A stretch of 64,000 nucleotides of DNA from [Clostridium] aerotolerans DSM 5434 (GTDB lineage Bacteria > Bacillota > Clostridia > Lachnospirales > Lachnospiraceae). Under the pieces are notes generated by a model. That model worked only from the letters and a program-made list of their open reading frames with translations, made no database searches and had not been told where the DNA came from. Of the stretch, positions 3,781 through 12,173 are shown piece after piece. How positions within the stretch are numbered: position 1 is the first letter of the stretch; every line of letters begins with the position of its first letter. The stretch covers positions 62,001 through 126,000 of the forward strand of contig NZ_JHWJ01000009.1 in assembly GCF_000687555.1 (NCBI RefSeq). The letters are read 5' to 3'. The position numbers and the translations under genes are program-made.

Positions 3781-4413
3781 TTACTTGTGATACGCTTTGT
3801 TTAATGCATCCAGGATATAATCAGGGCTTTGAGCACCAGATATTACATATTTGCCGTCAATGATAAAGTGAGGGATGCTGTTAATTCCAAGTTTTACGGC
3901 TTCTTCTTCGTCTCTTTGTACCTGAGCGGATAGGGTTCCATTCTCATACTGGGATTGGAAGTGGGTTAAATCCACGCCCAGGTCTTTGGTAAGCTGAAAG
4001 AGAACATCCTTATCTTCTAAGTGGAGTCCCTGAGTGAAGACCCCTTTAAACAGACGGCGGATGAGTTCCAGATTCTTTCCCTGACCAGCAGCATAGTGTG
4101 CCAATTCATGGGCCAGTCTCGTACGTTCCACTTGAAACAAATCAAAGCGGATATTAAGACCCACCTGTCTGCCTGCTTCTGTAATGCTGTCATTGTTGGC
4201 TTTTGCCTGGGCATAGCTGACATGATACTTATCTGCAATAATCTGGTTAATGTCTTTGCCCTTGGTGGAATCAGATGACATATTGAGTTCAAAGCTTTTA
4301 AAAATCAGTTCCACCTCATCACGGTGTTCAAATTTTTCCAGTGCAAGTTCCAGTTTCCGTTCTCCCAGATAGCAGTACGGGCAGACGAAATCAAACCATA
4401 GTTCAATTCTCAT
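3781..4413 (-). CDS. DsbA family oxidoreductase (FrnE-like)
   Basis: A 210-residue cytoplasmic thioredoxin-fold protein without signal peptide. The N-terminus MRIELWFDFVCPYCYLGERK has a CPYC redox motif (Cys11, Cys14) in the DsbA/FrnE arrangement. The long helical insert follows, and the cis-Pro region near the C-terminus reads GINSIPHFIIDGKYVISGAQ. Family members are thiol-disulfide oxidoreductases or GST-kappa-like isomerases, often linked to oxidative or electrophile stress. It starts at ATG after AAAGGAG. It has its own consensus promoter (4493-4521) and a palindrome just downstream of it, so it is probably repressor-controlled. It shares a bidirectional terminator with the GH43 gene. Confidence 0.85.
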   Translation of the reverse strand: MRIELWFDFVCPYCYLGERKLELALEKFEHRDEVELIFKSFELNMSSDSTKGKDINQIIADKYHVSYAQAKANNDSITEAGRQVGLNIRFDLFQVERTRLAHELAHYAAGQGKNLELIRRLFKGVFTQGLHLEDKDVLFQLTKDLGVDLTHFQSQYENGTLSAQVQRDEEEAVKLGINSIPHFIIDGKYVISGAQSPDYILDALNKAYHK

Positions 4414-4543: not shown

Positions 4544-5509
4544 TTACTCTTGTTTGGTCAGCTTTTTATAAGCAGCCAGGTCCTGGTTCCAGGACTCATA
4601 GGTTTTGTCCTTACGGTGATCGGTCAAAATGCCTTGCTTCGATAAATAAGAACCGATATAGCCTGATATTTTAACGCTGCCGAAGTAATTCGGATGGTCT
4701 CCCTCATCTCTGGTATCCTTACTCCAGTCCATAGGAACCTCAGAAGTCATAAGATTAAGATCAAGGAAGGTAAGTTGGTTCTTCTCTGCAAGGGAAACTG
4801 CGGTATTGTGCTTGCCTGGAGTCCAGTTCTTAGGGGTTGGTACAGAGTAAAGTACCAGTTGAATGTTCTCTTCCCTGCAAAGCTCAATAATTTTATTAAT
4901 ATACTCCATAGGCTGTTCTCCAATGGGATAAACGGAATCACTTTCCCTTATATAAGGTCCGCCTTTGTAGGGATTTATCACTGGCACATACTTAAAGCCC
5001 TTATAGGTGCTAATTGGTCCGTCAGCCGCCTTGTTTTTTAAATTTTTAAGCATGTTTAAGTGGAAATATTTCCAGTTGCTGTGGAATTTGTAAACAGGGA
5101 ACATATCCTTCATGTTCTCGTCTACCATATTATCCAGCGCACTCAGATATTCAAAATCCCTGTAAAATGCGTTTGTTTCCAGAAAAACAATTTTAGGGGA
5201 TTGCTTTTTTAAAACCTTCTCAAATAAGTAATAGGTATCCTGGAGCCGCTGTCCTGGTACTCCACAGTTATAACCTGTATAGCCGTAATCCTTCCAGATT
5301 TCCATGGGGGATATACTGGATACGGCTTCGCTGTCTCCGATAACCAGATAATCAATGGTATTATCATCCTCGCTGGTAATGCTGTTTGTTTTTTTATATA
5401 AACCGCTGTCCATGGTGTTGTTTGGAAGGATCAGATACGATAACCCATACAGCAAAATAAAAAGTCCAGATAGAAAAAGAACTATTTTGACCTTGTTATT
5501 GATTTTCAT
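4544..5509 (-). CDS. DltD/SGNH-hydrolase-like membrane-anchored protein
   Basis: A 321-residue protein, last gene of the dlt-like operon. A longer frame exists upstream, but it overlaps the MBOAT gene and lacks a binding site. The ATG at 5509 follows GAGGTGATGA and sits 11 bases after the MBOAT stop. One N-terminal membrane segment (about residues 6-27) leaves the catalytic part outside. The SGNH features are YLVIGDSEA (nucleophile Ser), an Asn in the NCGVPGQ block, and DEGDHPNYFG, which supplies the Asp-x-x-His pair. DltD acts with DltB to pass D-alanine to teichoic acid, so by analogy this protein finishes transfer of the operon's aminoacyl or amine group to a wall polymer. Substrate is unknown. 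Confidence 0.75.
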   Translation of the reverse strand: MKINNKVKIVLFLSGLFILLYGLSYLILPNNTMDSGLYKKTNSITSEDDNTIDYLVIGDSEAVSSISPMEIWKDYGYTGYNCGVPGQRLQDTYYLFEKVLKKQSPKIVFLETNAFYRDFEYLSALDNMVDENMKDMFPVYKFHSNWKYFHLNMLKNLKNKAADGPISTYKGFKYVPVINPYKGGPYIRESDSVYPIGEQPMEYINKIIELCREENIQLVLYSVPTPKNWTPGKHNTAVSLAEKNQLTFLDLNLMTSEVPMDWSKDTRDEGDHPNYFGSVKISGYIGSYLSKQGILTDHRKDKTYESWNQDLAAYKKLTKQE

Positions 5510-5520
5510 TTCATCACCTC

Positions 5521-7104
5521 TTAAAATCCGGCATAAATTAATTTCACCGGTAAATATCCCTCGCCGTAAGCACCAAAAATAAGCACCACAAGAATTGCGG
5601 CATAAAGAAAGGCAAAACGGGCGGGCATGCGCCATGCAGAAATCTCATCACGAATGGAAACTCCCCGCTCATGGATCACTCCCACAATAAGGACCGTAAG
5701 GAGGCCAAAGAATGCGGCATAGAAATCCTGAATGGATACCCCTAGCTTAAGGAGAGAACCGTCGGTAAGTACCGACCAGTTAAATCCGGTAAAAATGGAA
5801 GCGAACATCTGAAACCCTAAGGTTAAGTTTCCTGCATTAAAGAACAACTCGCCGGTAAATACAATTATAAGCAGCTTTATGGTCTGAAACACACGGTATG
5901 GAATGCCTTCCCTGTTCATGTGTAGGGCATTCGTCACTGTTACGACCCATGGTTCTAAAAGATTTTCAAGGAGTATGATGACTAAATAATACATTCCAAA
6001 AAAGATATAATGCCACCCGGTTCCATGCCAGAATCCATTAGCCAGCCAGACTCCAAACAGTGGGAGGGCGGAAGATAATACCTGCCCTAAGTGCTTTCCA
6101 AATCGTTCCCGTGATTTTTTTCCCAGCTTTTTCCCGAATTTCGTCAGAGAGATGGGATAAAATACGTAATCCTTTAACCAGGTACCAAGGGTAATGTGCC
6201 ACCGCCTCCAAAATTCAGATGCATTTTTTGCAAAAAAGGGCTGGCGGAAGTTTTCCGGTACAATAACCCCAAAGATTTCTCCGGTACCAATAGTCATATC
6301 AATACAGCCTGAAAAGTCAGCATAGAGCTGGAAGGTATATAAAACGGCGCCGATAATAATGGTAATGCCGCTGTAATTACCAGGTGTACTAAAGATATTG
6401 TCCACAAGAGGATTTAATCGGTCTGCGATCATAAGCTTTTTAAACAATCCCCAAAGAACTCTCTGCAGACCATAGGTGAGGTTCTTATAATCCAGAGGCT
6501 TTCCGATATAGAGAGAATCTGCTGTCTGATTGTATCGGCAGATGGGCCCTTCCATTAATGTGGGGAAGAAGGCGAGATAAAGGGCAAGCCGCTCTAAATT
6601 ATCATCAGGCTTGATTTTATCGTAATAAACATCAACCAGATAAGATACTGCCTGTAAGGTGTAAAATGAGATTCCAATGGGTACTACAAAATGCATGGCA
6701 GGCACAACTTCTTTGAAAGAAAAGATATGAAGTATGTCATTGATGTTCTTTACGAAAAAATTAGAGTATTTCAGTACAAGCAGAATGCCCAGCTGAAAAC
6801 CGATGGAAAGCCATAGAATGCGGCGGCGTTTCCTGGCATAGACTGCTTTCAGCGCCTTTTTGTCCTGGGAAGCCAAAAGCTCCCGTTCCCCCTCTGCTTT
6901 GCAATAGCCAAGCCACAATCCACCGTGATGGATGAGCAAAGTAGACAGCAGCAGGTATATGAGGAGCTTTCCGCTGATGGAATAAAAGAAGATATAGCTG
7001 GCCAGTAAAAGGACTTTTGAACGGTGGCGCTGGGGGCAGAAGTAGTATGCCGCCAGCACCAGGGGGAAAAATGCAAACAGGTAAAGGGGGGAAGTGTACG
7101 TCAT
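5521..7104 (-). CDS. MBOAT family acyltransferase (DltB/AlgI-like)
   Basis: A 527-residue integral membrane protein with roughly 10-12 hydrophobic segments. Family marks include YFCPQRHR near the N-terminus, EFWRRWHITLGTWLKDYVFYPI in the central re-entrant part, and ANGFWHGTGWHYIFFG containing the invariant catalytic His. DltB, AlgI and PatA proteins move acyl groups from a cytoplasmic donor through the membrane to an extracellular sugar polymer. Here the donor is presumably the carrier protein encoded just upstream (3-base gap), and the partner is the SGNH protein downstream. It is longer than typical DltB (about 400 residues) and closer in length to AlgI. Start ATG after AGAGGAATAAAAG. Confidence 0.88.
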   Translation of the reverse strand: MTYTSPLYLFAFFPLVLAAYYFCPQRHRSKVLLLASYIFFYSISGKLLIYLLLSTLLIHHGGLWLGYCKAEGERELLASQDKKALKAVYARKRRRILWLSIGFQLGILLVLKYSNFFVKNINDILHIFSFKEVVPAMHFVVPIGISFYTLQAVSYLVDVYYDKIKPDDNLERLALYLAFFPTLMEGPICRYNQTADSLYIGKPLDYKNLTYGLQRVLWGLFKKLMIADRLNPLVDNIFSTPGNYSGITIIIGAVLYTFQLYADFSGCIDMTIGTGEIFGVIVPENFRQPFFAKNASEFWRRWHITLGTWLKDYVFYPISLTKFGKKLGKKSRERFGKHLGQVLSSALPLFGVWLANGFWHGTGWHYIFFGMYYLVIILLENLLEPWVVTVTNALHMNREGIPYRVFQTIKLLIIVFTGELFFNAGNLTLGFQMFASIFTGFNWSVLTDGSLLKLGVSIQDFYAAFFGLLTVLIVGVIHERGVSIRDEISAWRMPARFAFLYAAILVVLIFGAYGEGYLPVKLIYAGF

Positions 7105-7107
7105 CTT

Positions 7108-7335
7108 TTATTCCTCTTTCAGACGGGTGATCATACTCCAGATTGCATCTGCGGAATTAAAGTTTGCAGGGATCATTTCACCAGGGGTGATTTCAATATC
7201 AAAGGCCTCTTCTAATTCAGGAATGAGAGAGAGGATGGAAAAAGAATCTAACAGTCCTCCGTCAATGAGCTTTGTCTCTGTTTCATAATCAATGCCTGGG
7301 TTAATACCATTTAAAATTTCAAATAACTGTTCCAT
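7108..7335 (-). CDS. Acyl/aminoacyl carrier protein (DltC-like)
   Basis: A 75-residue acidic carrier protein. GGLLDSFSIL contains the DS motif where Ser31 would carry phosphopantetheine. Length matches DltC and other stand-alone carriers. It starts at ATG after AAAGGAG, with the binding site overlapping the end of the decarboxylase gene (12-base gap), and is followed 3 bases later by the MBOAT gene. It should be loaded by the adenylation enzyme of this operon and be the donor for the MBOAT protein. Whether the decarboxylase acts on free or carrier-bound substrate is open. Confidence 0.88.
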   Translation of the reverse strand: MEQLFEILNGINPGIDYETETKLIDGGLLDSFSILSLIPELEEAFDIEITPGEMIPANFNSADAIWSMITRLKEE

Positions 7336-7347
7336 ACTTGTTCTCCT

Positions 7348-8532
7348 TTATGATTGAAAATAATTGAATAAATTGGTTGGTGTGGCTGGCCTTGCCTCTA
7401 TATACTGGTCCTTCTGTGAATAGAGAAGAACGGTGGGTAAATCCCGGCTTAAGAATAAGGACATTCCTTCTGTGACAGAATAGGCGCCTGTTTTTTCAAA
7501 TGCCAGATAATCCCCAGTCTTTAAGCCTGTAAGAGGATACTGCTTGACAAGCATGTCGTTTACCGTACAAAGAGATCCGCAGATGGTCCATTCTCTTGTT
7601 TCCCCATCCTTTTCTCCCAGATGCTTTATGAACGGCTTTTTCATAGCAAGCATCTGTCCGTAATAATTCACCTGATGACAGCCGCCGTCGACGATGCAAT
7701 AGGATTGGCCCTTGTTTGTTTTCATATCCACTACTTTTGTCACATAAGAACCGCAGCAGGCGGCCATAAAGCGACCCATTTCCAGGGTGACGACTCCTCC
7801 AAAGGTCATTTCCTCAATGGCCTTTGATAGCTGATGGAGCATTTCATCTTCCTGATTTTCTTCCTCTTCAAAGTAACAGACGGGGAGTCCGGGGCCATAT
7901 TCGATTTTCTTAACAATAAAGCCGTATTTTTCTTTCCATGCGTCGCAAAGACCATCTAGTCTTGAAAGCTCTTTGAAAAGCTTGGAGGAAGATTTTTTCT
8001 GAGTACCGGAAAAATACTGGATTCCTTCGATGGTAACCCACTCATAAGGCCCTTTCCCTATGAGTTCCTCTAAAAGCTCCTCATCCATTCCAAACTGGTT
8101 TCCGCTGGTAAGTCTTAACAGCACATTCACATGGGCCTGGTATTTTTCTGCACAGGCTGTAATCATCTGCCAGTGGGAGAGGGATTCTACGGTATAGGTA
8201 ATGCTTTCACCAAAGGTTTTCACGGCATGGTCTACGTCTGAAATATTCTTATGAACACCGGACATGACGATTTTTTCCCCGGGGACATTGGCTCTTTCGC
8301 AGATAGAGAATTCTCCGGGAGAGCAGACCTCAAAGAAATCCACCTGATCCACCAGGCTTTTTATGAGAAATGGATTGGCCTTCATGGCATAGCACAGTTC
8401 CACCTGATTGCCAAGGATTCCTCTTATTTTTTGAATCTGTCCGGCCAGAGTATCCAAATCAAACAAATAGAGAGGCGTCTGATAAGTGCGGACAGCATTG
8501 GTTAAGGTTGTGTTGTTGATTGAATTTTTCAT
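7348..8532 (-). CDS. Fold-type III PLP decarboxylase (LysA/BtrK-like)
   Basis: A 394-residue member of the alanine-racemase-fold (group IV) decarboxylases such as diaminopimelate, ornithine and carboxynorspermidine decarboxylase. YAMKANP carries the PLP lysine (Lys51), EYGPGLPV is the phosphate-binding glycine block, ICGSLCTVND the catalytic Cys loop, and GAYSVTEG near the C-terminus the active-site Tyr. The ATG at 8532 overlaps the adenylation gene stop as ATGA and follows GGAG at a good distance; the GTG two codons earlier is too close. No lysine genes are nearby, so a housekeeping LysA role is unlikely. In butirosin synthesis the related BtrK decarboxylates a carrier-bound glutamate, so action on a carrier-bound or free amino acid of this operon is plausible. 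Confidence 0.85.
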   Translation of the reverse strand: MKNSINNTTLTNAVRTYQTPLYLFDLDTLAGQIQKIRGILGNQVELCYAMKANPFLIKSLVDQVDFFEVCSPGEFSICERANVPGEKIVMSGVHKNISDVDHAVKTFGESITYTVESLSHWQMITACAEKYQAHVNVLLRLTSGNQFGMDEELLEELIGKGPYEWVTIEGIQYFSGTQKKSSSKLFKELSRLDGLCDAWKEKYGFIVKKIEYGPGLPVCYFEEEENQEDEMLHQLSKAIEEMTFGGVVTLEMGRFMAACCGSYVTKVVDMKTNKGQSYCIVDGGCHQVNYYGQMLAMKKPFIKHLGEKDGETREWTICGSLCTVNDMLVKQYPLTGLKTGDYLAFEKTGAYSVTEGMSLFLSRDLPTVLLYSQKDQYIEARPATPTNLFNYFQS

Positions 8533-10034
8533 ATACACATCTCCAGTAATTTTTTTCTGTCAATTTTCCCATTAGGGGTAATGGGTAATTCGGTGAGAGG
8601 GTGAAAACCAGTGGGTATCATATAGGAAGGAAGCGTGTTTCGCATCTTTTCAGAAAGTTCCTTTCCTTCCATGGTACCGACATAAAAGGCAGTGATTCGG
8701 TTTCGCTTCTCATCGAATACACAGCAGGCCCGTTCCATGGAAGGGTAGCTGTTCATAGCCATTTCGATTTCTTCCAGCTCAATGCGGTGTCCCATATGCT
8801 TGATCTGAAAGTCTTTCCGTCCCGCAAAGCAAAGCTCCTTGTTTTCGTTATAAAAGGCTAAGTCTCCGGTTCGGTATATCAGCTCTAAATAATTATTGTT
8901 CAAAGGATTCTGGACAAAGGCACGTTTTGTCTGTTCCGGGTTATTATAATAGCCAAGGGCGAGGGCAGTACCAGCTACACAAAGCTCTCCGCTTATTCCC
9001 GGACTTGTCACCTGCTTATCCTCCTCATCAAGGAGAAATACCTTTTCATTGGGAAATGGTTTTCCAATGGGTATCTTTTCATCGGCCTGAAACTCCCGGT
9101 CGATCTCATAATACGTGCAGTTACAGGTGATTTCCGTAGGGCCGTAGAGGTTTACATACCTGGCATCAGGAAGATACTTCTTCCAGGTGTTCAGCTGCTT
9201 GACCGGCATGGCCTCTCCGCTGAATAATACCTTTTTAATCTGATCTGGCACCTTGTAGGTAAAACCCTTCAGCTGGGATACGAGACAAAGTGCGGATACC
9301 GCCCAGATTAAGGTAGTCACCTTCTGCTCGCACAAATAATCCAACAAAAGAGTAGGAATGGAAAACATTCTTTTTGGTATGATCACCATGGCAGCACCCG
9401 TTTTTAACGTGGAATAAATGTCTTTTACGGATACATCAAAGTCAAAGGGTGCCTGGTTTCCGATGATGTCTTCCTCTGTAATGTGGAAGAGACCAGGGAA
9501 ATATTCCATAAAATCTATGACGGACCGATGGCTGACCAGGACGCCTTTTGGAATGCCGGTGGAGCCAGAGGTGAAGTTACAGTATAATGGATCCACATCA
9601 AGGGAATGAACACGGATTTCTCTTAAAGCCGCTTCCTTGATTTCGTGTTTCACCATCTCATGATAATCAAAGCATTGACCCAGATAACCGGCTTCCTTAA
9701 GAACATGTCTATCCTCACCCAGGGTGATGACAGAGCCTGCTTTGGAGGTTTCTAATATCTGGCGGATCCGAGCTGGCGGCTGGTCCATATTGATGGAGAT
9801 ATAAAAGCAGCCTGCAGCCACGATTCCCATAAATGCGGTCAGCGCCTCCACACTTTTATCCATGAAAACGGCCACGGGACGTCTGGGAGCTTCCTGCTCC
9901 GATAAAAAGCTACCGATGCGCCTGGCATTGTGTAACAGCTCTTCATAAGTTACACATTTCTCCGGATCCAGGACTGCTGTTTTTTCGGGGTACAACTTAG
10001 CGGATTGTTCCAGGTATTCTAATACATTTTTCAT
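8529..10034 (-). CDS. DltA-like amino acid adenylation enzyme
   Basis: A 501-residue ANL-superfamily ligase, the size of DltA (about 505). It has the P-loop FTSGSTGIPKG (about residues 154-164), PFDFDVSVKDIYSTL (the Asp region that binds the substrate amino group), NLYGPTE, YRTGDLA, the hinge GRKDFQIKHMGHRIE, and the catalytic Lys in NGKIDRKKL at the end. It would activate an amino acid as AMP-ester and load the carrier protein encoded downstream. Similarity in layout to DltA suggests a small amino acid, but the inserted decarboxylase argues against plain D-alanine. Start ATG after AAGGAAGCG, two bases from the histidine kinase stop. Confidence 0.88.
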   Translation of the reverse strand: MKNVLEYLEQSAKLYPEKTAVLDPEKCVTYEELLHNARRIGSFLSEQEAPRRPVAVFMDKSVEALTAFMGIVAAGCFYISINMDQPPARIRQILETSKAGSVITLGEDRHVLKEAGYLGQCFDYHEMVKHEIKEAALREIRVHSLDVDPLYCNFTSGSTGIPKGVLVSHRSVIDFMEYFPGLFHITEEDIIGNQAPFDFDVSVKDIYSTLKTGAAMVIIPKRMFSIPTLLLDYLCEQKVTTLIWAVSALCLVSQLKGFTYKVPDQIKKVLFSGEAMPVKQLNTWKKYLPDARYVNLYGPTEITCNCTYYEIDREFQADEKIPIGKPFPNEKVFLLDEEDKQVTSPGISGELCVAGTALALGYYNNPEQTKRAFVQNPLNNNYLELIYRTGDLAFYNENKELCFAGRKDFQIKHMGHRIELEEIEMAMNSYPSMERACCVFDEKRNRITAFYVGTMEGKELSEKMRNTLPSYMIPTGFHPLTELPITPNGKIDRKKLLEMCI

Positions 10035-10036
10035 AG

Positions 10037-11368
10037 TTACGCTTCCTTTCCTTGGGCTGACACTGGAAAGCTGGCCCTGGCTTCAAACCGAGTCCGGTTT
10101 TTTCTTATCTTAAAGGTCCCTTTCATCTGCTCTGTTATTTTTCGGCAGGTCTTAAGACCGATTCCAGTACTTTCCGCCAGAGAATGATCCTGTCGGATAT
10201 CATTGCTGATGCTGATGATTATGTGTTGTCCATTGCATTCGGCATTTACAAGAACTGGTCCACTGGTGCTTGCATATTTTCTTACATTGGAGAACAGGTT
10301 ATCAAAGAGGCGTTTAAAGTATTGAATATCACCTGTTATCATACAGGACTGCTCTAAAAGTCCGGTCCTCACATCAAACCCCTGATTGCTTAAATCAAAT
10401 ACATGTTCGCCAATCAGCTGTTCTAAAAGGATGCGTGCATCAAAGGTCTCTTTCTTCATCAGTATGGTCTCCTTGCCAAATACAAGGAAGTATTGAAACA
10501 GCTTATCGGACAGCTCCTTTAGCTGGAGGGATTTTTCTTTGCAGCTTTTGATATATTTAGAAAGCTGTTCTTCTGAATGATATCCTTCCGTTTCCAGAAT
10601 CTCCAGATAGCCGATGAGAGCCGTGAGAGGAGTTCTGATGTCGTGGGACATGGAAGTAATCAGCTCGCTGTTCGCTTCCCAGGCCTCTTTTTCGCTTTTG
10701 TAACGTGTAATAATGGAATTTCTCATATTGTCAGCGTTTATGGCCAAAAGGGCTATCTCGTCATTTCCTTTATGATAGATGGGCTGTTCTAAATTTCCCT
10801 GTTCAATCAGGGAAACTTCTTTTGACAGGAGCATGATCCGGGCTATGATTTTGTGATTATAAAAGATCACGATGCCGAATAAAAACAAGAAGAAAACTCC
10901 AAGGGAAATATAAAAAACAATGTTATACCATTTGATTTCCGAGGAATCGATAATGGAAACAGAATAGATCCCGTCGGTAAATGCAATGTTTCTGGTCAGC
11001 TGCTGGCTTTCTTCCAGGAAGGTTCCTGTGGACTCGTAATTGTAATAAGCATCGTTCCAGAAGCCGGATTCATATAGGATCTCATCGCCGCTATATATGG
11101 TTAAATACGTGTATTTATGGCTTTTGACCCATTTGGATAAGGCCCTTACATCTTTTACCGAAAGTTTATTTTTCCTGATATAACCTTCAATGGAATTTTG
11201 ATAGTTTTCCAGCCGTTTTGCGGAGGCATCTGCATTTAAATGATTCCTGGAAATCAAGTAATCTCCCAGAGACTGAGTCGCCAGATACATGAGAAAGCTG
11301 ATCAAAAGACCTAAGGCCAATACATAGACCTGCTTGTAACGGAGGGAAGATCTCATACTAAACTTCAT
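10037..11368 (-). CDS. Sensor histidine kinase of the dlt-like operon
   Basis: About 443 residues. Two membrane segments (about 14-34 and 148-170) enclose an extracellular sensor region of about 110 residues. These are followed by a HAMP-like linker, HisKA (SMSHDIRTPLTALIGYLEIL, phospho-acceptor His) and HATPase_c (LFDNLFSNVRKYAS N-box, STGIGLKTCRKI G-box). The ATG at 11368 overlaps the regulator gene by 11 bases; a TTG one codon earlier and an ATG at 11356 are alternatives. Together with the response regulator it heads the adenylation-carrier-MBOAT operon, so it probably senses envelope stress or cationic peptides and controls wall modification. That role is inferred from context. Confidence 0.88.
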   Translation of the reverse strand: MKFSMRSSLRYKQVYVLALGLLISFLMYLATQSLGDYLISRNHLNADASAKRLENYQNSIEGYIRKNKLSVKDVRALSKWVKSHKYTYLTIYSGDEILYESGFWNDAYYNYESTGTFLEESQQLTRNIAFTDGIYSVSIIDSSEIKWYNIVFYISLGVFFLFLFGIVIFYNHKIIARIMLLSKEVSLIEQGNLEQPIYHKGNDEIALLAINADNMRNSIITRYKSEKEAWEANSELITSMSHDIRTPLTALIGYLEILETEGYHSEEQLSKYIKSCKEKSLQLKELSDKLFQYFLVFGKETILMKKETFDARILLEQLIGEHVFDLSNQGFDVRTGLLEQSCMITGDIQYFKRLFDNLFSNVRKYASTSGPVLVNAECNGQHIIISISNDIRQDHSLAESTGIGLKTCRKITEQMKGTFKIRKNRTRFEARASFPVSAQGKEA

Positions 11369-12071
11369 CAATCTGATAGCCCTTTCCCCAAACGGTGCGT
11401 ATGATCGTTGGATTATTGGAATCGAGTTCCAGCTTTTTCCGCAGCTTTAAAATGTGAACCATTATGGTATTGGTGGAGGAGGGAAGAAACTTATCATTCC
11501 AAACGCCCTCGTAGATGGCTCTGGCATCCTTGGCACTGCCTCTGTTTTTCACAAGATACATGAGAACCTGAAACTCTGTATCCGTAAGGTCGATTTTTTG
11601 GTTCTCCCGGTAGACCTGACGGCTTTGGGTATTAATCAGAACATCCTGAATCCGGATTTCTGAATTACTGATATTTGGCTGGGATTTTCCTTTATATATC
11701 ACGTATCTTCTTAAAAGTGATTGAACCTTCATAAGAAGCTCCGACTGGGAAAATGGCTTTACCAGATAATCGTCTCCGCCAGTTTCATAAGCCTCTGTCT
11801 TATCGCTTTCCTTTGATTTGGCGGTGAGAAAGAGTATGGGGGCGGAAGAGGTCTTTCTGATTTCTTTGCATACATCGATTCCCGACAGACCGGGCATCAT
11901 GATATCAAGTATAATTAAATCAATGTCCAGATTTTTTGAAACGGTTTGAATTGCTTCCGTTCCGTTAGCGGCATCCCAGACAGAATAGCCTTTATTTTCC
12001 AGATGGATACGAAGTACTTCCCGTATATCGGCATCGTCATCCACAATTAAAATCTGCTGTGCAGCCTCCAT
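11358..12071 (-). CDS. OmpR/PhoB-family response regulator
   Basis: A 237-residue two-domain regulator. The receiver domain has the acidic pair DDD (11-13), phospho-acceptor Asp56 (DLIILDIMMPG), the switch Thr in FLTAKS and the Lys in LVKPFS. Residues of about 135-235 form a winged-helix DNA-binding domain (LTDTEFQVLMYLVKN, GYQIDEV end). Start ATG follows GGGAGG. It is the first gene of the seven-gene operon, reads from the promoter at 12137-12110, and probably autoregulates through the ATACGG repeats upstream. Confidence 0.92.
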   Translation of the reverse strand: MEAAQQILIVDDDADIREVLRIHLENKGYSVWDAANGTEAIQTVSKNLDIDLIILDIMMPGLSGIDVCKEIRKTSSAPILFLTAKSKESDKTEAYETGGDDYLVKPFSQSELLMKVQSLLRRYVIYKGKSQPNISNSEIRIQDVLINTQSRQVYRENQKIDLTDTEFQVLMYLVKNRGSAKDARAIYEGVWNDKFLPSSTNTIMVHILKLRKKLELDSNNPTIIRTVWGKGYQIDEV

Positions 12072-12109: not shown

Positions 12110-12137
12110 ATTATAACATTTGGGTGAAGAATAACAA
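12110..12137 (-). promoter_or_regulatory. Promoter of the regulator/dlt-like operon
   Basis: Minus strand: TTGTTA (12137-12132), 16-base spacer, TATAAT (12115-12110). Transcription would start about 30 bases before the response regulator ATG. Confidence 0.65.
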
Positions 12138-12173
12138 TGTGTTTTAGGAGGATTTAAGAATTATTAAGAAATG

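Follow-up and report, generated by a model that had tools for sequence, protein, structure and literature searches.

What does an amino acid decarboxylase do within an operon that otherwise resembles dlt, and which group would such an operon place on the cell surface? The question is raised by seven minus-strand genes of [Clostridium] aerotolerans DSM 5434, found in a 64,000-nucleotide stretch of DNA (hereafter the window). Running from 12071 to 4544, they encode a response regulator (RR), a sensor histidine kinase (HK), an adenylation enzyme (A), a fold-type III pyridoxal phosphate decarboxylase (D), a carrier protein (C), an MBOAT acyltransferase (M) and a likely SGNH protein (S). The run and spacings first described for these genes agree to the base: RR and HK overlap by 11 bases, HK and A lie 2 bases apart, A and D share an ATGA overlap, and 12, 3 and 11 bases separate D from C, C from M and M from S, respectively. 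This is a real, conserved gene set, for which no published description turned up in the open PMC literature (open PMC papers, searched by title or start of abstract). As in Dlt, an adenylation enzyme, a stand-alone carrier, an MBOAT and a membrane-anchored, probably SGNH-type protein are encoded in one operon. We consider it rather probable that the operon is a two-module machine in which an acidic amino acid would be decarboxylated on a carrier and placed as an omega-aminoacyl group on an envelope polymer.

Conservation of the gene set

D was found in 23 of the 25 genus genomes searched, own genome included (G223 holds it in two frames), and D relatives in 43 of 200 sampled family genomes (E 1e-20; 41 close, G103 and G108 only 28-30% identical). 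Phylum-wide it was found in four of 398 genomes at E 1e-60, the own genome counted. Among the matches listed, the nearest D outside the own genome is that of Clostridium sp. 12(A) (96%), and that of Lacrimispora algidixylanolytica is 77% identical; named hosts include Lachnospiraceae, C. cadaveris, Massilimicrobiota, Merdibacter and two uncultured Erysipelotrichaceae. The loci compared were those of the best 80 of 295 D relatives from named genomes, 40 loci from family genomes and the window. The 40 represent 40 of the 42 other family genomes with a D match, G071, G112 and the second match of G090 being left out. Removal of six duplicates gave 115 distinct loci for gene-order counts, in which the misses include contig ends as well as loci of other order.

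The original prediction had expected the adenylation gene and the decarboxylase gene to form a conserved pair and close relatives to keep the gene order, and both expectations were borne out: in these D-retrieved loci A lies immediately upstream of D in 104 of the 113 that have an upstream gene, and the order A-D-C is found in 86 of 115. C is the immediate downstream neighbour in 90 of 111, so that D has adenylation and carrier genes beside it, as in BtrK- and VinO-type systems. M-S adjoins A-D-C in 74 loci (A-D-C-M-S in 62, M-S-A-D-C in 12), and M or S occurs somewhere near D in 95. A is not directly upstream in L153 and L154, where identity to D is 28-30%.

Protein-distance correlations were calculated for the 69 loci holding all five proteins, with host kinship left in. 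Those with A were 0.86 for D, 0.77 for C, 0.61 for M and 0.43 for S, and the others were 0.71 (D-C), 0.75 (D-M), 0.61 (D-S), 0.58 (C-M), 0.37 (C-S) and 0.87 (M-S). A-D and M-S have the two highest values, suggestive of a donor module and a transferase module.

Fusion was considered as evidence of A-D-C coupling and rejected: the partner of D in the 1114-amino-acid frame of L137 is neither A nor C but a transglutaminase-like surface protein. This frame (L137:5713-9057), either real or an assembly effect, holds D together with a membrane segment and Ig-like and transglutaminase-core domains. The 554-amino-acid D of L150 is probably an over-long reading frame.

Adenylation enzyme and its predicted substrate

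A (8529..10034, minus strand; 501 amino acids; Pfam AMP-binding) is a stand-alone adenylation enzyme whose pocket residues D200, V201, K204, S272, L296, C304, N305 and K490 correspond to GrsA positions 235, 236, 239, 301, 322, 330, 331 and 517. This assignment is consistent with the pocket residues D197, L198 and C269 of B. cereus DltA given in the available part of PMC11253843. Across 114 A rows near D (duplicates kept, one or two gaps per column, L153 included despite its non-adjacent A), D235 occurs in 109, V236 in 108, K239 in 109 (Arg in two), S301 in 111, and C330 and N331 in 109 each. The 21 DltA rows used for comparison, four of them (L163, L211, L212 and L213) under the curated cut-off, carry L236 (21), M239 (20), C301 (19), V330 (21) and A331 (19). 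None of the 114 A rows has L236, M239 or C301, and where a D-alanine pocket would show the equivalents of L198 and C269, A enzymes carry Val (108/114) and Ser (111/114). As regards the sole use of D-alanine, which would have told against the original prediction, the predicted pocket is thus not of the D-alanine kind.

Against the DltA equivalog model A scores 301.8 bits, with a cut-off of 559.85. A tree of 56 proteins was built from 14 random D-linked rows, the window, L139, L147, 11 racemase-linked rows, 14 of the 21 DltA rows and 14 other rows. In it DltA is split from A by a 100/100 branch, one long-branched other row (L193) sitting with DltA, and all 17 D-linked rows fall into a single group (97/96) together with three rows lacking D. 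By its predicted pocket and its tree position A is separate from DltA, and pocket, tree and cut-off scores together led us to reject a canonical dlt operon. DltA above its cut-off was detected in six of the 200 family genomes, two of which (G082 and G152) carry D as well, and dlt clusters with a DltA-type pocket occur in the same family in the order A-M-C.

The conserved pocket Lys suggests that A would select an undecarboxylated dicarboxylic amino acid, decarboxylation following loading. Our main reason for proposing an acidic substrate is that two different tailoring enzymes accompany two K239 pockets, relatives or precedents of both acting on acidic amino acids. The second pocket, D-A-K...G (A236, G301), defines a sister A group (100/99) with a racemase in the cluster, usually just before A. 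Among 40 A loci hand-picked from a longer match list, which give no frequencies, the racemase was present in 11 of 12 D-A-K...G loci (L185, L186, L192, L198, L201, L202, L204, L217, L219, L220 and L224), and the four racemases tested pass TIGR00035. No racemase of the sister type was found in D-linked loci at E 1e-10. A second reason is that the K239 code DAKDLGVV was assigned to Glu/Asp in a surfactin synthetase (PMC10548584, in the part available). Loading through the side chain is proposed because a decarboxylase of the kind of D needs a free alpha-amino acid head, and alpha-loaded Asp or Glu has none.

Precedents for such loading are described in the available parts of two papers: VinN, in which positions 236 and 301 are bulky (F and S), handles 3-methylaspartate as a beta-amino acid in loading, TycA variants switched to a beta-amino acid had A236V in every sequenced case (both PMC11253843), and FlvN is an aspartate enzyme of the VinN type (PMC11284099).

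Decarboxylase

D (7348..8532, minus strand; ATG at 8532; 394 amino acids; K51, C322-T323 and Y351) contains two Pfam decarboxylase domains, and its top PDB sequence match is BtrK (26-27% identity). At the substrate loop D shares an LCT motif with decarboxylases of conjugated substrates, whereas LysA has CE; T occupies the position of the LysA Glu in 116 of 121 D rows (duplicates kept; the D alignment comprised the window and 60 of 67). SbnH, which acts on a citryl conjugate according to the accessible text of PMC7857480, has LCT as well. D reaches 154.8 of the 297.9 bits required by the LysA model TIGR01048 and, as judged from score and motif, is separate from LysA. The proposal of Dlt-like logic combined with a BtrK-like decarboxylase is supported; it also presupposed that D is not the only LysA-type enzyme of its genome. 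It is not: the LysA candidate L001 (279.2 bits) is also under the TIGR01048 cut-off but carries the LysA motif LCEN. Another gene of the own genome, L002, encodes a third fold-type III decarboxylase, which lies at a similar distance from the lysA and FslC models and under both cut-offs.

The best NCBIfam model of D is TIGR03099 (exosortase-A-associated decarboxylase; 182.5 bits), yet this is far under the cut-off of 478.45 bits. D also matches the Pfam domain Ala_racemase_N, but both decarboxylase domains and the LCT motif speak against a racemase. In a tree of the window D and 13 hand-picked D proteins, which gave long-branch warnings, D forms its own 100/100 clade, whose position relative to BtrK, VinO-like enzymes and SbnH is not settled by the tree.

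Carrier protein, acyltransferase and probable SGNH protein

C (7108..7335, minus strand; 75 amino acids) has no Pfam match; its matches to carrier models, DltC among them, stay under the cut-offs (34.4 of 68 bits for the DltC equivalog). Its D30-S31 pair is invariant in 22 aligned sequences (the window and 21 of 73), and S31 (7245-7243) is the predicted phosphopantetheine site.

M (5521..7104, minus strand; 527 amino acids; Pfam MBOAT, with a WHG histidine) has DltB as its PDB matches (E 2.9e-22) and scores 148.4 of 375 bits against the DltB equivalog. It ends in LIYAGF (5524..5541), a predicted acyl-shuttle hexapeptide resembling the FXYXXF motif of PatA- and AlgI-type MBOATs. Among 96 C-termini, taken from the 99 M proteins over 450 amino acids with duplicates kept, Tyr occurs at -4 in 94, F at -1 in 91 and F at -6 in 55, the window having L at -6. 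Clustering of M at 70% distance gave one class only. The accessible part of PMC12148441 describes Dlt as using a carrier and DltX, which bears the FXYXXF shuttle, and other MBOAT-SGNH systems as lacking a carrier and having the motif fused to the MBOAT. A carrier together with a fused shuttle is a combination outside both of these descriptions. The PatA/PatB and AlgI-type systems have in common with the operon an MBOAT with a C-terminal Tyr shuttle and a likely SGNH partner; they use acyl-CoA and no carrier according to the same text, whereas the operon has a conserved carrier gene together with loading enzymes.

S (4544..5509, minus strand; ATG at 5509; 321 amino acids) is predicted to be a membrane-anchored transferase of the SGNH superfamily. 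It has no Pfam or NCBIfam match, and its profile match to AlgX (E 0.0085) is close to that of the unrelated chain KRIT1 (0.0093) in the same search. Three of 57 family members match GDSL lipase, and no DltD model was among the matches of these 57. In hhalign, S against six DltD-position proteins gave 68% over 58 columns, with 0.4% and 0.1% for two unrelated controls. S60, D268 and H272 are conserved in the S alignment (the window and 56 of 59), and these residues and the weak matches make S likely an SGNH protein.

The original prediction had equated the set with DltA-C-B-D in function, and this did not hold: A falls outside DltA (100/100), M carries a fused shuttle tail in place of DltX, and S is not recognisably DltD. 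From the DltA-DltB-DltC-DltD and DltX system the operon differs further in its non-DltA pocket, its extra decarboxylase and its order A-D-C-M-S.

A second MBOAT of the own genome (L155) has a neighbour that we read as secreted and SGNH-like, and resembles polysaccharide O-acetylation pairs.

Proposed pathway and alternatives

An omega-aminoacyl surface modification is most likely, each enzyme step being assigned from protein family and position. In the proposed pathway A would adenylate the side-chain carboxylate of an acidic amino acid, probably L-aspartate, L-glutamate being less likely, with K204 of the pocket holding the alpha-carboxylate and D200 the amine, and would load it onto the phosphopantetheine arm at Ser31 of C. 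With the amino acid bound to the carrier, D would then remove its alpha-carboxylate, yielding beta-alanyl-S-C or 4-aminobutyryl (GABA)-S-C. M would move the acyl group to the Tyr of its own LIYAGF tail, M and S would carry it across the membrane, and S would take it onto Ser60 and esterify an envelope polymer, probably a teichoic-acid-like one. An amine-bearing acyl product is the likeliest outcome, as had been proposed; the diamine suggested at the same time finds no support, and the pocket Lys points to a dicarboxylic amino acid loaded before decarboxylation. Conversion of aspartate to a beta-alanyl group is quite possible.

The glutamate variant, rather unlikely in our view, would have L-glutamate loaded by its gamma-carboxylate and a GABA group placed on the surface by BtrI/BtrK chemistry. 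GABA thioesters are prone to cyclise, which weighs against this variant, and no extra protecting ligase is found among the seven genes; in addition, V236 and S301 resemble the VinN-type arrangement, with the amine beta to the activated carboxylate. On its side stand the Glu/Asp assignment of the K239 code and BtrK itself, the closest solved sequence to D, which converts Glu-carrier to GABA-carrier according to the part of PMC7857480 available. D shares with the butirosin system its fold type, an adjacent carrier and LCT, but it is only 26-27% identical to BtrK, and its product would be destined for the envelope, not for an antibiotic. In the vicenistatin pathway, VinN, VinL and VinO (adenylation enzyme, carrier and decarboxylase) act in that order, as given in the accessible text of PMC11284099; the operon has neither a glutamate mutase nor a polyketide synthase. 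The A-D gene pair also occurs in plasmid relatives of Streptomyces and Kitasatospora. In L176 (Streptomyces sp. S501 plasmid) genes for AMP-binding, carrier and holo-ACP synthase proteins and for ectoine share one run with a D relative, a further A-C-D set.

Less probable still is that D acts on free diaminopimelate, lysine or ornithine, A loading the product or an unrelated alpha-amino acid, so that a diamine-derived or lysyl group would reach the surface. LysA-type enzymes do use free substrates, D has a LysA-type fold that ties with BtrK, and three A loci of the group have no D nearby. A diamine offers no carboxylate to adenylate, however, the conserved pocket Lys would be odd for a basic or neutral substrate, and a substrate loop with LCT where LysA has CE, the tight A-D-C linkage and the A-D distance correlation all argue against it. 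That the operon is a diverged dlt placing D-alanine on teichoic acid, with D as an accessory racemase-fold supplier of D-Ala, is very improbable: A, M and C do have Dlt models among their high-ranking matches, M finds DltB in the PDB and D matches Ala_racemase_N, but the A, M and C scores lie far under the equivalog cut-offs, D has both decarboxylase domains, no A row has a DltA residue at 236, 239 or 301, and the family has dlt clusters with a DltA-type pocket, DltA above its cut-off being present together with D in G082 and G152.

Several observations weigh against a carrier-bound route to an omega-aminoacyl group. The short beta13-beta14 loop of VinN is absent from A, the basic residues of VinN lie at 330/331 and that of A at 239, and V236/S301 may suit other substrates. 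In D, a His common to LysA and BtrK is Gln in 90 of 121 rows, and in the fold comparison LysA structures tie with BtrK by Z. The D-M correlation exceeds that of D-C, blurring the two-module picture. The four racemases tested pass NF052483, a model for cysteate racemase, as well. K239 occurs in L199 in the absence of both D and racemase, and in L200 the pocket is of the racemase type but the racemase is missing. L188, L191 and L221 share the pocket of A, but the locus retrieved for each lacks D, and the 43 family D matches include none of their genomes (G002, G158 and G147); nesting in the D-linked group, these loci are read as probable losses of D. L139 and L147 are D-linked and have the order A-C-D with a differing pocket, I-A-R, in which the amine-binding Asp is lost, and another substrate is likely there. 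These exceptions may handle other acyl groups. Finally, the neighbour genes tested in most loci point to no single polymer.

Surface aminoacylation affects cationic peptide resistance and immune recognition, and is known chiefly as D-alanylation. If the omega-aminoacyl proposal is true, many gut Lachnospiraceae would bear a surface acyl group overlooked by D-Ala assays. Such surface esters of omega-amino acids would be a charge modification without match for Gram-positive walls in the open PMC literature searched. The operon would also exemplify a carrier pathway feeding an MBOAT with its own shuttle, and provide a compact A-D-C module for producing omega-aminoacyl carriers. More tentatively, the Lachnospiraceae may have diversified the Dlt idea into surface aminoacylation machines with interchangeable donor modules, beta-alanyl here and a racemase-linked acidic, perhaps D-, amino acid in the sister operons, joined to MBOAT-SGNH heads with a fused shuttle.

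Regulation

RR (11358..12071, minus strand; 237 amino acids) is an OmpR/VanR-type response regulator by its Pfam response regulator and OmpR-type output domains, and HK (10037..11368, minus strand; ATG at 11368) is a membrane sensor histidine kinase with a VanS-like core (Pfam HisKA/HATPase). Alignment of seven upstream regions showed TTCTTAA-N3-TTCTTAA and the promoter after it as the best conserved blocks, the box of L047 having one mismatch. In the window these are the direct repeat TTCTTAA-TAA-TTCTTAA (12154..12170, minus strand), a predicted response-regulator box supported also by genus site counts, and the promoter-like TTGTTA-16-TATAAT (12110..12137, minus strand), with TG ahead of the second hexamer. 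The promoter scan overall gave 19 sites, against 18.9 in shuffles.

Of the 25 genus genomes, 18 have a single exact match to TTCTTAANNATTCTTAA each and seven have none, the reversed-pattern control giving three in all across the genus genomes; in the own genome the window box is the only exact site. Seventeen of the 18 boxes share the strand of D and precede it by 3608-3709 bases, the remaining one being on another contig, and G203, G204, G214, G218 and G219 have D and no exact box. Across the 115 loci, the 400 bases before A or RR hold 10 boxes on either strand in 49 kb versus 3 in 1.64 Mb, an enrichment whose p value is made too small by the kinship of the loci.

The predicted box, present in 18 of 25 genus genomes, probably marks a dedicated two-component circuit there. 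The claim that the operon has its own two-component system stands for the genus but does not extend to the wider set, where RR or HK lies within the same-strand run in just 18 of the 115 loci. The box precedes A in L037 and L042 as well, where the run has no kinase gene; a regulator of the same type may act in trans. RR and HK would turn the operon on through the private box, with envelope stress as a guess for the signal.

Neighbouring genes and related clusters

In L053 and L107 the cassette lies beside a nucleotidyltransferase and a sulfatase-domain protein, LtaS-like by layout, and in L053 a further protein carries clear choline-binding repeats. Transglutaminase-core neighbours occur in L075 and L085, with choline-repeat matches under the curated cut-off, and the own genome encodes a 647-amino-acid sulfatase-domain protein. 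None of the other loci tested shows a link of this kind. The neighbours of L066, L095, L061, L142 and others were set aside as housekeeping or unrelated genes. The genes flanking the cassette in L096 encode a MecA_N-type transpeptidase and a protein of beta-lactamase fold (Beta-lactamase2). Following S in the window is a gene at 3781-4413, which we take from its sequence to be DsbA/FrnE-like, with its own perfect TTGACA-17-TATAAT site at 4521-4493.

The racemase-linked sister clusters comprise racemase, A, C and mostly M-S, a Dlt-like arrangement with an Asp/Glu-type racemase replacing the decarboxylase. Further A-with-C loci, some with M-S, have other pockets: S-M...L-D-I, D-N-L...D-V and D-A-P (L187, L189, L190, L216 and L222; L196 and L218; L195). 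The neighbour in L195 has a subthreshold match to AAC(3) acetyltransferase, and the clusters of L221 and L191 include a formyltransferase-like and a GNAT-like gene, respectively, both under family cut-offs.

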